From Desulfobacteraceae bacterium (lineage in GTDB: Bacteria; Desulfobacterota; Desulfobacteria; Desulfobacterales; JAABSP01), in NCBI GenBank assembly GCA_011390345.1, contig JAABSP010000048.1, forward strand, positions 1 through 37,862: a DNA stretch of 37,862 nucleotides, read 5' to 3'. The position numbers were made by a program, and so were the translations under genes. A model generated the notes under the pieces. The model did not search any database, was not told the DNA's origin, and saw only the letters and a list, made by a program, of their open reading frames with translations. Positions 8,541 through 23,991 of this stretch are shown here, piece after piece. How positions within the stretch are numbered: position 1 is the first letter of the stretch; every line of letters starts with the position of its first letter.

Positions 8541-9728
8541 TCAGACCAAGGTCGGGATGACGGTGCGGAGAAATTCCCGGTCATCCTGTTCGATTCTGCG
8601 GAGGCCCTCGATGATCAGAAACATGAAGTCGCCGATCTCCGAGGCCTGCATCTTCTCGGGCGAGAGGCCCGGGAAGTATTTGAACCGTCCCCGCTTCAGC
8701 TTGAGCAGCTCGAAAAAGGCCTCCTCCCCTTTTTTGTTTCCATACTCCACATCCACCAGCCGGCCCTCCCGGAAGGAGAGCTGTGCGGTTTCATTGGGGA
8801 GCCGCAGGGTCAGCACTCCGGTTTTCTGATTGATGTTGAAGGTCTGGAAGAGGTCCGGCGGAGGCAGCTCGGAGATCTTTCCGGCCAGATTGGAGGAGAA
8901 CTGCTCGGAGCGGGCTGCGTTGATCTCGGCCATCCTCTTGACCAGCAGCCGGGTGAAACTCATCTGGAGGGAGGGGAACTGCTTCAGGATCTTTTTGAAA
9001 TGATCCGCGCCGATCCGCAGCAACGTGGTCGACTCGGCCACCTGCACCGATGCCCCCACCATGGAGCCGCTCAGGATGCTCATCTCGCCGAAGACCTCCC
9101 CGTTACCGATGGCGGCGATGGGCAGGCCGTCTTCGGAGAGGACATGGACGCTGCCCGATAGGATGATGAAGAGGTTTCGCCCCGCCTCCCCCTTGCGCAG
9201 GGCCAGATCCCCCCGGTTGAACCTGTCGATCCGCAGATAGGAGACGATATCCTTGATCTCCGATTTCTCCAGCCCCTCGAAGATGGAAAAGGTGCCCAGG
9301 TACTGGGTCAACTGCTCGGTATAGTCATGGTTCCGGCTCTCCATCCGGGCCTTGTGGATAAAGCGTATTCGGCCCGTGCAGCCGCTGCACTCATAGAGCT
9401 TGAAGGGGGTCTCCGGCTTCTCCTCACCCGATTCCTCCTGGAGGATATACCGGACGTCTCTGGCCAGAATGAGACAGGGAGCCTTGTGGGAGGGGACCAG
9501 AAAATCGCCCCCGGAGAGCTGGAATTCATCCTCCAGGGTATAGAGGGGGCAGTCCCGATCCTCGATAATGGTGAAGATGGGCGGGGGAACCGGGGATTCC
9601 TTTTCCGGCTCCGGATGAATGGTGATGAGATTGCCGCACTGGGAACAGCGGAACCTTCGCCCCTCTTCCTTTACAAGGGCGTTCCGGATGGAAAAGACAT
9701 TTTTGCATTTATCGCATTTGACCTTCAT
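8541..9728 (-). CDS. Zinc-ribbon / cyclic-nucleotide-binding / DUF4388 (PatA-like) regulatory protein
   Basis: A 395-residue cytoplasmic signalling protein with no enzymatic domain recognised. Residues 1-38 form an MJ0042-type zinc ribbon with C5-x2-C8 and C28-x2-C31. Residues ~75-135 are a spacer with another CxxC (ECSGC). Residues ~146-270 form a cNMP-binding (Crp-like effector) domain with GDLALRKGEAGRNLFIILSG and GEVFGEMSIL. Residues ~285-385 match DUF4388, the domain of PatA-type proteins, with TGVLTLRLPNETAQLSFREGRLV and EEAFFELLKLKRGRFKYF. No helix-turn-helix follows the cNMP domain, so it is not a CRP-type transcription factor. The ligand and partner are unknown. It stands alone between glnD and the small-RNA gap. 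Confidence 0.8.
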   Translation of the reverse strand: MKVKCDKCKNVFSIRNALVKEEGRRFRCSQCGNLITIHPEPEKESPVPPPIFTIIEDRDCPLYTLEDEFQLSGGDFLVPSHKAPCLILARDVRYILQEESGEEKPETPFKLYECSGCTGRIRFIHKARMESRNHDYTEQLTQYLGTFSIFEGLEKSEIKDIVSYLRIDRFNRGDLALRKGEAGRNLFIILSGSVHVLSEDGLPIAAIGNGEVFGEMSILSGSMVGASVQVAESTTLLRIGADHFKKILKQFPSLQMSFTRLLVKRMAEINAARSEQFSSNLAGKISELPPPDLFQTFNINQKTGVLTLRLPNETAQLSFREGRLVDVEYGNKKGEEAFFELLKLKRGRFKYFPGLSPEKMQASEIGDFMFLIIEGLRRIEQDDREFLRTVIPTLV

Positions 9729-9841
9729 AAACCGACCTGATCCTTAAAATCTATTCATCTTTGGCCTACCCTAAAGGAGTTTCTCTGTTTTGTAAAGCAA
9801 ACTTAGAAAACCGGATCGATCGGAGGGAATCTGACATTGCG

Positions 9842-9887
9842 CAAAAAAATCGAAAAAGCCGCCCGGAAAATGGGGAAACCGGGCGGC
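9842..9887 (-). terminator. Rho-independent terminator of the first predicted small RNA
   Basis: On the minus strand a perfect 9-bp stem GCCGCCCGG/CCGGGCGGC closes a 12-base loop and is followed by TTTTTCGATTTTTTT. It is a textbook intrinsic terminator pointing leftwards, 155 bases away from any protein stop codon on that strand, which implies its own short transcript. Confidence 0.8.
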
Positions 9888-9960
9888 CAGTAGTAACCAT
9901 TCATTTGGGATGGAGGTTGAATGGCAATTCCGATTGTCGCCGCCAGCCGGCGACGACAAT
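9842..9960 (-). ncRNA. Predicted small regulatory RNA 1 (~115 nt)
   Basis: Reading the minus strand, a TTGACA-17-CATATT promoter is followed by a stem-loop at 9960-9933 (11 Watson-Crick pairs plus one G-U, 4-base loop). Then comes an unpaired linker containing CAACCTCCATCCC (9919-9907) and the intrinsic terminator at 9887-9842. The only mismatch of the 5' stem on the plus strand becomes G-U in the minus-strand RNA, which supports this direction. The CCUCC is complementary to a Shine-Dalgarno sequence, as in several trans-acting sRNAs. It has no coding capacity beyond a few codons. I recognise no Rfam family. Expression is inferred. Confidence 0.65.
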
Positions 9961-9964
9961 TTGT

Positions 9965-9993
9965 AATATGAGTATCTTTTCTTTAGATGTCAA
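9965..9993 (-). promoter_or_regulatory. Predicted promoter of small RNA 1
   Basis: TTGACA (9993-9988, perfect -35), a 17-base spacer, then CATATT (9970-9965). The predicted start is near 9959, at the first base pairs of the 5' stem-loop. Confidence 0.65.
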
Positions 9994-10018
9994 GGGCATA
10001 ACAGAAGACATGCCTTCC

Positions 10019-10056
10019 GGAAACAGAAGAGCCGCCCTGGAAAAAAACAGGGCGGC
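10019..10056 (-). terminator. Predicted terminator of small RNA 2
   Basis: On the minus strand the 9-bp stem GCCGCCCTG/CAGGGCGGC closes an 8-base loop that is itself T-rich, followed by TCTTCTGTTT. The stem is nearly the same as the terminator of small RNA 1, but the T-tract is weaker. Confidence 0.55.
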
Positions 10057-10113
10057 TGTCGCGTTAAAGGAGGAAAAAGATGAATTAACCTGGCGATTTT
10101 CCTACCAGATTAA
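10019..10113 (-). ncRNA. Predicted small regulatory RNA 2 (~93 nt), same design as RNA 1
   Basis: On the minus strand a TTGACA-16-TATCTT promoter leads into a 9-bp stem-loop (arms 10113-10105 and 10093-10085, including one G-U, 11-base loop). A U- and C-rich single-stranded stretch with TTTTTCCTCCTTT (10078-10066) follows, then the GCCGCCC/GGGCGGC hairpin. Element order, linker motif and terminator stem match small RNA 1 located 58 bases downstream, although the 5' stems differ in sequence. The pair looks like a tandem duplication of one sRNA type. Target and function are unknown. Confidence 0.6.
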
Positions 10114-10117
10114 ACAG

Positions 10118-10145
10118 AAGATAATCCGCATTTGCTCTCTGTCAA
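10118..10145 (-). promoter_or_regulatory. Predicted promoter of small RNA 2
   Basis: TTGACA (10145-10140), 16 bases, TATCTT (10123-10118). The DUF167 stop codon is 54 bases upstream of the -35 box. Confidence 0.6.
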
Positions 10146-10150
10146 GGTAC

Positions 10151-10184
10151 TTTCCCGGATCGGGACAGGTTGTTTTCCCGGATC
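10151..10184. repeat. Two 11-bp direct repeats upstream of the small RNA 2 promoter
   Basis: TTTCCCGGATC is found at 10151-10161 and 10174-10184, 23 bases apart. Relative to the predicted start these lie at about -40 to -50 and -63 to -73, a usual place for activator sites. The binding protein is unknown. Confidence 0.45.
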
Positions 10185-10199
10185 AGGCATGTTTTCAAG

Positions 10200-10526
10200 C
10201 TATCCCTTGCTGTCGGCAAGGGCTGCAACAGCGGCCTTCAGGCGTAACCGATCCGCTAGGGTCGGATTCTTCCCGGGATAGTGGAGAAGAACCGTCTTGG
10301 CCCGGCCCGTCTGGCCCGAAACGATCTCCACCCCGGATTTGGAAACCCCGAGGCATTTGGCCAGAAATTCCGCGCACATCTTGTTGGCCGCGCCTTCCAC
10401 CGGTGGGGCCGTCAGCTTCACCTTCAAAGCATCGCCGTAAAGCCCCACGACCTGGTTTTTTGAAGAGCGGGGCTGGACATGGATGCGGAAGAGGATGCCT
10501 TCGGGCTTCTCCTGTACAAAGAGCAT
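10200..10526 (-). CDS. DUF167 (UPF0235/YggU family) protein
   Basis: A 108-residue protein of the DUF167 family, small conserved cytoplasmic proteins of unknown function. The core is visible: FRIHVQPRSSKNQVVG near residue 15-30, then LKVKLTAPPVEGAANK and a C-terminal VEIVSGQTGRAKTVLL, the standard family blocks. The ATG at 10526 is preceded by AAGGAGA at good spacing; a TTG at 10544 would overlap the hldE stop. It follows hldE by 14 bases on the same strand and is probably co-transcribed. The predicted small RNA genes start just downstream. Confidence 0.9.
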   Translation of the reverse strand: MLFVQEKPEGILFRIHVQPRSSKNQVVGLYGDALKVKLTAPPVEGAANKMCAEFLAKCLGVSKSGVEIVSGQTGRAKTVLLHYPGKNPTLADRLRLKAAVAALADSKG

Positions 10527-10540
10527 GGCAGATTCTCCTT

Positions 10541-12052
10541 TCAACCGGAATCGCGGTTTCGGATGTGGCGGATGATGGTGCTGGCCGAGATGTTCTCCTG
10601 CAGCGGAATCAGAACCACTCGTCCCCCGAGGCTTTCCACCAGCGCCCGGCCCTCCACGGTCTCCTCGGAATAGTTGCTCCCTTTGGTCAGCACGTCGGGA
10701 CGGATCGCCCGGATCAGATTTTCCAGTTCCCCGTGTGAGAATAGGGTCACATAGTCGATCGCGTCGAGCGCACTCAGAATCCGGATGCGCTCTTTCTGCC
10801 CGATGACCGGTCTTCCCGGGCCTTTGAGTGCCCGGACCGCATCATCATCGTCGATTGCGGCAATCAGTACATCCCCCTCTTTCCGGGAGGCGGAGAAGAG
10901 GAGGATGTGGCCCGCATGGAGCAGGTCGAAGCAGCCGTTGGTGAGTACGATCCGCTTTCCCTTCCGCTTCAGGTCGGCCACGATCCGGGAGAGGGCTTTC
11001 ATCGACTGGAACTTCCCGCTGAAGGAGTCTGTAGAGCCTGCCGAGGCCAGTTCCTCCCGGGTCACGGTCGCGGTTCCCACCTTTGCCACCACCACCCCGG
11101 CGGCTGTGTTGGCCAGAGCTGCCGCCTCTTCAAAAGAGAGGCCCGCGGCCAGCCCGAGCCCCAGCACAGAGATCACCGTATCCCCTGCGCCAGAAACATC
11201 AAAGACCTGTCTCGCTTTTGCCGGAATCAGATGGGGCCGCTTTCCCCGCTCAAAGCAGACCATGCCGTGGGCTCCGCAGGTGATCAGCAGGCGGGGGGCC
11301 TGGGTTGCAGATAATATCTTCTCTGCTGCCCGCTTCAGGCTTTGGTCATCTTCGATCTCGATGCCGGAAGCCACTGCGGCCTCTTTCCGGTTGGGCGTCA
11401 GCAGGCCCACTCCGGCATATTTGGTGAAATCGAGCCCCTTGGGATCGCAGATCACCTGCCGGCCGTGATTCCGGCCAATGCCGATGATCCGGGAAAGAAA
11501 CCGGGGGGAGAGGAGCCCCTTTGCATAGTCCGAGAGGAGCAGGAGGTCGCTGTCGGGAATCCTTTGATCAAGATAATCGGCAAGATGATTGAGGGTCTTC
11601 TCTGTAATTCCTTTCCGGGTCTCCCGGTCGATTCGGAGTACATGCTGATTCCCCGCGATGATCCGGGTCTTTCGGGTGGTGAGCCTTCCCTCTTCCCGGA
11701 CGATACCGTCGGTCTCCACATCGAGTTCGGAAAATGCCTCGATCATCCGGTCTCCGTCGGGGCCGTCTCCGATGACGCTGGCCGCAAATACGGTTGCCCC
11801 CAGTGCCCGAAGATTGTTGATCACATTGCCCGCGCCGCCCAGGGTATAATCCTCACGATTCACGGAAACGACCTGCACCGGGGCCTCTGGAGAGATCCGA
11901 TCCACCGCTCCCCAGACATATTGATCCAGCATGAGATCGCCCACAACGAGGATCTTACAGGTTTCAAAGTCGGGGATCTCCCCGCGGTATCCGGTTTTTG
12001 ATTCAGGATTTAATTCAGAATTTAATTCAGGATAGGAGTGCTGCAAAGTCAT
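10541..12052 (-). CDS. hldE: Bifunctional D-glycero-beta-D-manno-heptose-7-phosphate kinase / heptose-1-phosphate adenylyltransferase
   Basis: Makes ADP-heptose for the lipopolysaccharide inner core; cytoplasmic. The 503-residue protein has an N-terminal PfkB-type kinase (~30-335) with VVGDLMLDQYVWG, GGAGNVINNLRALG and the catalytic FDVSGAGDT motif. The C-terminal nucleotidyltransferase (~360-500) has LTNGCFDLLHAGH, the HxGH-type signature, and KGSNYSEETVEGR. The length matches two-domain HldE. A short, almost duplicated peptide (PELNSELNPESK) near the N-terminus is encoded by a small direct repeat and is not part of the conserved core, so the true start may be a little further in. The presence of HldE implies a Gram-negative outer membrane. 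Confidence 0.95.
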   Translation of the reverse strand: MTLQHSYPELNSELNPESKTGYRGEIPDFETCKILVVGDLMLDQYVWGAVDRISPEAPVQVVSVNREDYTLGGAGNVINNLRALGATVFAASVIGDGPDGDRMIEAFSELDVETDGIVREEGRLTTRKTRIIAGNQHVLRIDRETRKGITEKTLNHLADYLDQRIPDSDLLLLSDYAKGLLSPRFLSRIIGIGRNHGRQVICDPKGLDFTKYAGVGLLTPNRKEAAVASGIEIEDDQSLKRAAEKILSATQAPRLLITCGAHGMVCFERGKRPHLIPAKARQVFDVSGAGDTVISVLGLGLAAGLSFEEAAALANTAAGVVVAKVGTATVTREELASAGSTDSFSGKFQSMKALSRIVADLKRKGKRIVLTNGCFDLLHAGHILLFSASRKEGDVLIAAIDDDDAVRALKGPGRPVIGQKERIRILSALDAIDYVTLFSHGELENLIRAIRPDVLTKGSNYSEETVEGRALVESLGGRVVLIPLQENISASTIIRHIRNRDSG

Positions 12053-12169: not shown

Positions 12170-12262
12170 TGGCGGAGAGAGAGGGATTCGAACCCTCGGT
12201 GCAGCTTTCACCACACACTCGCTTAGCAGGCGAGCGCCTTCAGCCGACTCGGCCATCTCTCC
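12170..12262 (-). tRNA. tRNA-Ser (anticodon GCU)
   Basis: Class II tRNA on the minus strand. Acceptor arms GGAGAGA (12262-12256) and TCTCTCC (12180-12174) pair fully. The anticodon loop reads CTGCTAA, giving GCT. A long variable arm is present, and the T-arm has GGTTCGAATCC. The discriminator is G at 12173, and CCA is encoded at 12172-12170. It decodes AGC/AGU serine codons. Confidence 0.97.
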
Positions 12263-12332: not shown

Positions 12333-12418
12333 TGGCGGAGGGAGTAGGATTCGAACCCACGGAGCTTTCGCTCAACGGTTTTCAAGACCGCCGCCTTCAA
12401 CCACTCGGCCATCCCTCC
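12333..12418 (-). tRNA. tRNA-Ser (anticodon UGA)
   Basis: Class II tRNA on the minus strand. Acceptor arms GGAGGGA (12418-12412) and TCCCTCC (12343-12337) pair fully. The anticodon loop CTTGAAA gives TGA. The variable arm is long, the T-loop is TTCGAAT, the discriminator is G, and CCA is encoded at 12335-12333. Same strand and transcription unit as tRNA-Ser(GCU), 70 bases upstream of it. Confidence 0.97.
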
Positions 12419-23632: not shown

Positions 23633-23991
23633 GGGGGCGAAACGGCTTCGACGGAGGCAAAGAAGCATCGACTGCATACCGAGGTTCTGCTGCTCGTAAA
23701 ACGGCGGAAAATAAACTTAATCGCAGACGATTACGATTACGCATTGGCCGCTTAATTGCGGCTGACGTTCTGGCGGACTCTCCTCCCGTGGAATCGCCGG
23801 AGCGACGACTTAGCGGGATAGCAGATCATGGATTGCCGGTTGCCCGATCTGCGAAATTTTAGACTGGCTGGCGGTTGTCGGTATCCTGCCTGAAGGAGAT
23901 CGCAACTGCGAGAATTAAAATTCAGGATAAGTATGTAGATGTCGCTGTGGAATGTCTTCGGACGCGGGTTCGACTCCCGCCGCCTCCACCA
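23633..23991 (+). ncRNA. ssrA: Transfer-messenger RNA (tmRNA)
   Basis: A 359-base tmRNA that rescues stalled ribosomes by trans-translation. The 5' GGGGGCG pairs with the 3' CGCCTCC (one G-U), followed by A and CCA. The T-arm GCGGGTTCGACTCCCGC and the 5' GGGGGCGAAACGGCTTCGACGG are diagnostic. The tag reading frame starts at the resume codon GCA (23723) after TTAATC and gives ADDYDYALAA, then TAA at 23753-23755. The tag ends in the protease-recognised LAA. It is flanked by clpB on the other strand and a toxin-antitoxin pair downstream. No integrase was seen next to it. Confidence 0.97.

Follow-up and report, generated by a model that had tools for sequence, protein, structure and literature searches.

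Between a DUF167 gene (10200–10544, minus strand) and a gene whose product carries zinc-ribbon, cNMP-binding and DUF4388 domains (8541–9728, minus strand; Pfam), the window, meaning the whole 37,862-nt stretch of Desulfobacteraceae DNA that was analysed, contains a gap occupied by two minus-strand units. Elsewhere in the window lie two tRNA genes (12173–12262 and 12336–12418, minus strand) and a tmRNA gene (23633–23991, plus strand), and a search with the cNMP/DUF4388 protein gave nine matches within its own genome, itself included, as well as several in related genomes.

The initial annotation had assigned to each unit a TTGACA promoter (spacers of 16 and 17), a 5′ stem-loop and a GCCGCCC/GGGCGGC terminator stem, and all three were recovered. 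A promoter scan placed a sigma-70-type promoter, TTGACA-16-TATCTT, at 10118–10145 (read from 10145 to 10118 on the minus strand) ahead of unit 1, and another, TTGACA-17-CATATT, at 9965–9993 (9993 to 9965, minus strand) ahead of unit 2, two promoter-like sites where 0.7 were expected from shuffles (9700–10260, both strands). Each of these near-consensus promoters is followed by a 5′ hairpin starting at the expected +1, by CCUCC and by a GC-rich terminator stem. The exact arm pair GCCGCCC/GGGCGGC, with its arms 4–28 apart, occurs five times in the genome (4.79 Mb), and the terminators of units 1 and 2 account for two of these occurrences. When 817,505 bases of the source genome were scanned on both strands for a promoter (5/6 + 4/6, spacer 16–18) followed by a strong terminator, with thresholds picked in knowledge of the units, exactly two units were obtained, units 1 and 2, both with CCTCC between promoter and terminator, while block-shuffled copies (n = 3) gave none. 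Folding of the minus-strand RNAs likewise went beyond that of shuffled sequences, with z-scores of −4.7 (unit 1) and −5.5 (unit 2). Given the promoter counts, the folding scores and the outcome of the combined scan, the pair is unlikely to be a product of chance.

Neither unit was found by BLAST with the locus or by single-unit models in three genomes of the same family, BLAST of the locus against plasmids gave no match, and Rfam 15 at gathering score, applied to the whole window, identified the tmRNA and two tRNAs only and neither unit. The gap was not conserved beside the cNMP/DUF4388 gene at 12 loci inspected among the matches listed, nor beside the DUF167 gene in 13 relatives inspected (L084 left out) of 45 matching genomes. 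In 10 of these 13 relatives (L074, L075, L077, L078, L081–L083 and L085–L087) tRNA-like sequence was seen by eye 3′ of DUF167, which is the place that the two units occupy in the window. Across 389 genomes of the order, the pattern CCTCC..GCCGCC..GGCGGCTTTT had 18 matches, compared with 16 for the reversed control; the best-looking of the four matches inspected (L108) stands after an ATP-sulfurylase-like gene, named by eye, and was set aside.

Predicted RNAs and their folds

Unit 1 is predicted, from the promoter and terminator scan, from folds and from relatives of its core, to specify a small RNA of about 92 nt (10021–10112, minus strand). Its 5′ hairpin (10086–10112, minus strand) has nine pairs, two of them G-U; the single G-U position reported initially is what is counted if the loop-closing pair is omitted. 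Next to it lies the anti-ribosome-site core UUCAUCUUUUUCCUCCUUUAA (10064–10084, minus strand, with CCUCC at 10073 to 10069), and then the terminator stem AGCCGCCCUG/CAGGGCGGCU (10030–10057, minus strand), detected by scan, fold and arm search, with a weak U tail (CTTCTGTTT). The hairpin loop, AGGAAAA, can pair with the linker instead, and two nearly equal folds are predicted: one has the 5′ hairpin together with a free CCUCC, and in the other GGUAGGAAAA, near the 5′ end, is paired with UUUUUCCUCC. The unpaired probability of CCUCC was ~0.54 for 10021–10111, a balance that varies with the chosen ends.

For unit 2, scan and folds predict a small RNA of about 115 nt (9845–9960, minus strand). It begins with a 5′ hairpin of 12 pairs, one of them G-U (9933–9960, minus strand), and continues with a second hairpin, GCCAUUCA/UGAAUGGU (9896–9925, minus strand), whose 14-nt loop shows ACCUCCAUCCCAAA and holds CCUCC (9916 to 9912) with an unpaired probability of 0.98–1.0. 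The terminator stem, GCCGCCCGG/CCGGGCGGC, is followed by UUUUU (9858–9887, minus strand); having a loop of 12 where the terminator scan had a limit of 8, it was absent from that scan and was seen by fold and arm search. The CCUCC stretches had been described as single-stranded, which is right for unit 2 as regards exposure, although there the motif sits in a hairpin loop, and is right for unit 1 in about half of the ensemble. The layouts thus differ: unit 2, with three stems to the two of unit 1, carries its CCUCC in the loop of the extra, second hairpin. The bodies are unlike as well, their similarity score of 14.0 being reached by 297 of 500 shuffles, whereas the score for the two terminators was reached by none of 500. 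The units had been proposed as paralogues of the same design, a description that is supported for promoter and terminator at most.

When reverse-complemented, the linker of unit 1, UUCAUCUUUUUCCUCCUUUAA, reads exactly as a strong ribosome site followed by its start codon, TTAAAGGAGGAAAAAGATGAA, and so mirrors TTAAAGGAGG-AAAAAG-ATGAA (GGAGG-N6-AUGAA). The plus-strand complement of unit 2 reads GGAGG-N4-ATG, so that each of the two units is the mirror of a ribosome site and a suitable start codon. The G-U stem pairs would become A-C on the plus strand, which favours the minus strand in both units, as had been argued for the 5′ stem of unit 1.

A sigma-54-associated family in the order

The covariance-model search proposed in the initial annotation was run per unit; it led from unit 1 to relatives and found none for unit 2. 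In BLAST with the locus across 58 genomes, the source genome included, five short matches were obtained besides the self match (21–40 nt, E 0.002 to 0.008). Two of them (L010 and L011) are gene starts in two other genomes, where the complement of the unit 1 21-mer forms the ribosome site and the start of the gene. When 146 genomes were searched with a model made from the single unit 1 sequence (R1), 13 of them, again including the source genome, yielded 15 matches in total. Eight of the 14 non-self matches, from three genomes each of families f45 and f50, have the core followed in register by a strong terminator and, judged by these sequence features, are clearly real relatives; the other six look like chance. 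The unit 1 21-mer is identical in three of the eight (L122, L124 and L134), and identity over these 21 nt was found in three of five f45 copies, with similar cores in f50. All eight also have an upstream sigma-54 element, TGGCA-N6-TTGC in six and a variant in the other two, one with CGGCA and the other with CTGC.

A second model (R3) was built from unit 1 and these eight relatives. By its E-values, which are per genome and rough, it matched, among the 389 genomes of the order, 226 at E ≤ 0.01 and 159 at the stricter cut-off of E ≤ 1e-4. In a phylum sample of 395 genomes, at least 17 of which belong to the order, nine were matched at E ≤ 1e-4, seven of them in the order (source genome included). 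A weak family match accompanied by a sigma-54-like element, CUCUUUCCUCC and a terminator was seen outside the order as well (L225, 1501–1583, minus strand, in genome G671). A −24/−12 element was present 24–41 nt before the core in 58 of 61 inspected family hits, which are mostly best-scoring R3 matches, include eight from the R3 training set and had their cores anchored by a loose pattern, compared with 31 of 2525 control windows. Of the three remaining hits, two come close to the consensus, and no such element is present in the third, from G544, which lies outside the order.

The family core reads approximately AACCUAAUAAUUUCUUCAUCU(G/U)UUUUCCUCCUU, which is complementary to a ribosome site together with ATGAAGAAATTATTAGGTT, and its CCUCC part varies more than its UUCAUCU part. 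The family sRNA, to which loci L143–L191 belong, has the core UUCAUCUUUUUCCUCCUUUAA, with all 21 nt identical in some copies, and a strong terminator, in a total of about 75–90 nt. Copies stand in tandem in four genomes (G207, G003, G001 and G116) and on three contigs in another (G132). At gathering score, Rfam had no match at 20 family loci.

A sigma-54 activator motif was detected on the same strand in the upstream kilobase of 15 of 59 hits, about a quarter, a count that includes five loci without identification, and Pfam confirms a sigma-54 activator at one locus, L161. Inspection of flanking ORFs by eye gave 15 loci with an upstream response regulator of the sigma-54-activator type (L123, L125, L126, L155, L157–L162, L166–L168, L175 and L186), a set that overlaps the motif set and is not identical to it; on re-checking the 16 hits at these 15 loci for the motif, 10 passed, and in the remainder it was further off or cut. 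At several activator-neighboured loci a convergent TPR protein lies downstream of the sRNA. By analogy with Pxr, Dv_sRNA2 and Qrr, discussed below, the regulator probably activates the adjacent family sRNA. The matches listed from the literature on Desulfobacterales contained no such family and no translation-blocking RNAs. We consider this family to be the most valuable outcome of the finding: if it is what it appears to be, it would represent an RNA regulon under sigma-54 control that is common in the order, and for which a porin gene would be a concrete candidate target.

Candidate targets at gene starts

The source genome has a canonical family copy of its own, with TGGCAAGGCTCTTGC and the full core (contig C150, 77652–77733, minus strand; L172, 1153–1234); R3 counts a third match in this genome, without coordinates. 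Pairing with gene starts was assessed over 437,862 bases and 340 crudely called genes, with mRNA structure ignored and with 60 dinucleotide-shuffled cores as the comparison for the core of the own copy; duplex energies spanning long internal loops were left out of the evidence. Target prediction against ribosome sites, which had been put forward as a check on the units, did not set them apart from shuffles: across the 340 gene starts the best energy was reached by 10 of 60 shuffled linkers for unit 1 and by 52 of 60 for unit 2, so that target prediction supports neither unit alone.

For the core of the own copy, the best gene-start pairing, −34.9 (L232, 9219), was stronger than the strongest of 60 shuffles (−32.7), and mean pairing over all starts, a level reached by six of 60 shuffles, was not clearly different. 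The second-best pairing, −32.6, about equal to the strongest shuffle, fell on a porin-like gene (L245, contig C41, start 18679, minus strand; Alginate_exp PF13372, E 1.4e-6), with whose start unit 1 pairs at −25.9, third of 340. This start reads AAGGAGGAAAAAAAGATGAAGAAATTT, and the leader of the gene holds TTATTAGGTT, the complement of the other half of the core, with one wobble against the own copy. This leader is the single place in 817,505 bases of the source genome where TTATTAGG[TC]T is present. The order of the two porin sites does not allow them to form a single uninterrupted duplex, and, if both are used, they would therefore have to be paired apart or by two RNAs. On these sequence matches the porin mRNA is a candidate target.

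The motif GGAGGAAAA..TGAA was found at six places besides unit 1 in 817 kb, four of them before exported-looking starts (L245, L248, L273 and L287), with signal sequences judged by eye, which hints at a role in the envelope. In a 400-kb sample of another genome (G150), TTATTAGG[TC]T was not present and no target was found. When near-perfect single targets of the family core were sought in 25 genomes, 11 of 36 rows lay off sRNA genes, all with three mismatches, compared with six control matches.

Reading of the two units and known systems

Taken together, these results lead us to favour, with a probability of roughly 0.6, two independent minus-strand sRNA genes, each ended by a terminator, whose RNAs would act in trans as antisense over the ribosome sites of mRNAs. 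We infer that each unit would be transcribed from its own sigma-70-type promoter, giving an RNA with the 5′ hairpin and the terminator at its ends, and that by pairing over a ribosome site in the cell this RNA would block the 30S subunit and repress mRNAs with strong ribosome sites. Unit 1 would alternate between a fold showing its core and one hiding it, the core being masked until a target pairs, and unit 2 would present CCUCC in its hairpin loop. Likely clients of unit 1 would be mRNAs starting AAGGAGGAAAAAnATGAAR, for example that of the porin gene. Weighing against this reading are the failure to find either unit in the three same-family genomes, the hiding of CCUCC in about half of the unit 1 ensemble, the target energies that shuffled linkers also reach, the folding of the plus strands beyond shuffles and, for unit 1, a non-significant family profile score, given below. 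For both units the sRNA reading is likely, and the anti-ribosome-site mechanism is a plausible proposal. The central proposal of the initial annotation, minus-strand small RNA genes with stretches complementary to ribosome sites, is supported by promoter, terminator, fold and rarity, and for unit 1 also by the recurrence of its core in further intergenic units that end in a terminator. What it had observed is real and better than chance, and is partly confirmed, with the corrections given above; its interpretation is partly supported. If the RNAs work as read, they would be translation blockers of a simple kind, each with its own promoter, in a group for which the literature matches listed held no such RNAs.

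Unit 1 shares with the order-wide family a terminator directly after the anti-ribosome-site core and the anti-ribosome-site plus anti-AUG stretch UUCAUCU-UUUUCCUCCUU. What sets it apart is its promoter, which is of the sigma-70 type, its 5′ hairpin and the lack of the upstream half AACCUAAUAAUUUC (anti-MKKLLG), its profile match starting at position 23; no −24/−12 promoter was found 24–41 nt before its core (L121). Unit 2 has only CCUCC and a terminator in common with the family. With a profile made from 49 distinct cores, unit 1 left out, unit 1 obtained 6.8 bits (E 0.37), the best score in the window and not significant. The match covers the anti-ribosome-site half alone, and a plain gene start (L010) outscores unit 1 on the same profile (14.3 versus 6.8 bits). 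Unit 1 may thus work like the family, and may share its origin as a sigma-70-driven offshoot, and we leave its membership unclaimed because of the missing sigma-54 promoter, the missing AACCUAAUAAUUUC half and the non-significant profile score.

These same three features favour a rival explanation, in which the likeness of unit 1 to the sigma-54 family is convergence, since any RNA complementary to an optimal ribosome site followed by ATGAA would look this way, and the two units are orphan sRNAs specific to the lineage and unrelated in origin. We give this explanation even odds. It is favoured further by the occurrence of the complement of the 21-mer as ordinary gene starts, and by the canonical family copy that the source genome already has elsewhere. 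Against it, a model made from the single unit 1 sequence picked out eight family members among its 14 non-self matches, in two taxonomic families and with terminators in register. More speculatively, and with considerable doubt, unit 1 could have escaped sigma-54 control within an undescribed order-wide regulon, in which NtrC-type regulators would activate sigma-54 sRNAs with a core that is the mirror of ribosome site and opening codons (AAGGAGGAAAAnAGATGAAGAAATT) in mRNAs for exported proteins, the porin mRNA above all. The lineage would then have gained a sibling that is driven by sigma-70 and masks itself with its 5′ hairpin, alongside a second anti-SD RNA, of the loop type.

Leader or terminator debris, with one terminator ending the DUF167 operon, the other shielding the cNMP gene and CCTCC present by chance, is an unlikely source of the two units. 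The terminators do stand in a gap flanked by two genes of one strand, a usual position for terminators, and the unit bodies are unlike each other. Moreover, no relatives of unit 2 were found with its covariance model (R2), which matched, besides unit 2 itself, a plus-strand stretch overlapping both units (E 2e-4) and five sequences in five genomes (E 6e-4 to 0.09); the latter were taken as chance, CCTCC being present only in G007 and there as part of a stem. What speaks against debris is that each terminator is preceded by its own near-consensus promoter and by a stable hairpin at the predicted +1, a promoter–terminator combination that was seen nowhere else in the 817 kb scanned. A plus-strand function, in which the CCTCC complements would be true ribosome sites of tiny frames (M-N-stop; MAIPIVAASRRRQFVI), is highly improbable, for although GGAGG stands 4–6 bases before ATG in both plus-strand sequences, a terminator-like site of five pairs lies on the plus strand at 10153–10165 and the plus strands also fold beyond shuffles, if more weakly (z −4.3 for unit 1, −3.0 for unit 2), no plus-strand promoter-like site was found within 9700–10260, the first frame consists of two codons, and the minus-strand G-U stem pairs turn into A-C.

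Returning to the preferred reading of two trans-acting antisense RNAs, their likeness to the alpha-proteobacterial anti-SD sRNAs, suggested initially, holds for design, namely stems, a terminator, a loop or linker that carries a CCUCC-type motif, and presumed blocking of ribosome sites. It is a likeness of design only, since the best Rfam score, that of suhB/mmgR (RF00519) against unit 1, was 19.1 bits, far below the gathering score of 41. For alpha-r14/NfeR1 and SmelA075/SmelA099, two to four similar hairpins are reported, with CCUCCUCCC in their loops (PMC10746234, PMC3927594). Compared with alpha-r14/cuckoo anti-SD sRNAs as described there, the units have one CCUCC per RNA and no repeated CCUCCUCCC hairpins.

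For the wider family, nearer precedents than the alpha-proteobacterial sRNAs are Pxr, Dv_sRNA2 and Qrr, which it resembles by description. The second of these is from Desulfovibrio, which lies outside the order of the source genome. In Myxococcus, the sRNA Pxr is described as lying downstream of the sigma-54 regulator nla19/pxrR, with a sigma-54 promoter and with paralogues in some species (PMC5568312, PMC10217877); a triple stem-loop is reported for it. On these accounts, Pxr and the family have in common a sigma-54 promoter, paralogues and a response regulator of the sigma-54 type upstream of the sRNA, whereas the units in the window have no sigma-54-type regulator as a neighbour. In Desulfovibrio vulgaris, Dv_sRNA2 is given as a downstream target of the response regulator DVU0679 (PMC3333781), so that here, too, a sulfate reducer combines a response regulator with a downstream sRNA target, as the family appears to do. 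Finally, the units differ from Qrr of Vibrio in their sigma-70-type promoters, while the wider family is like Qrr in its sigma-54 dependence, its several copies and its NtrC-type activator.
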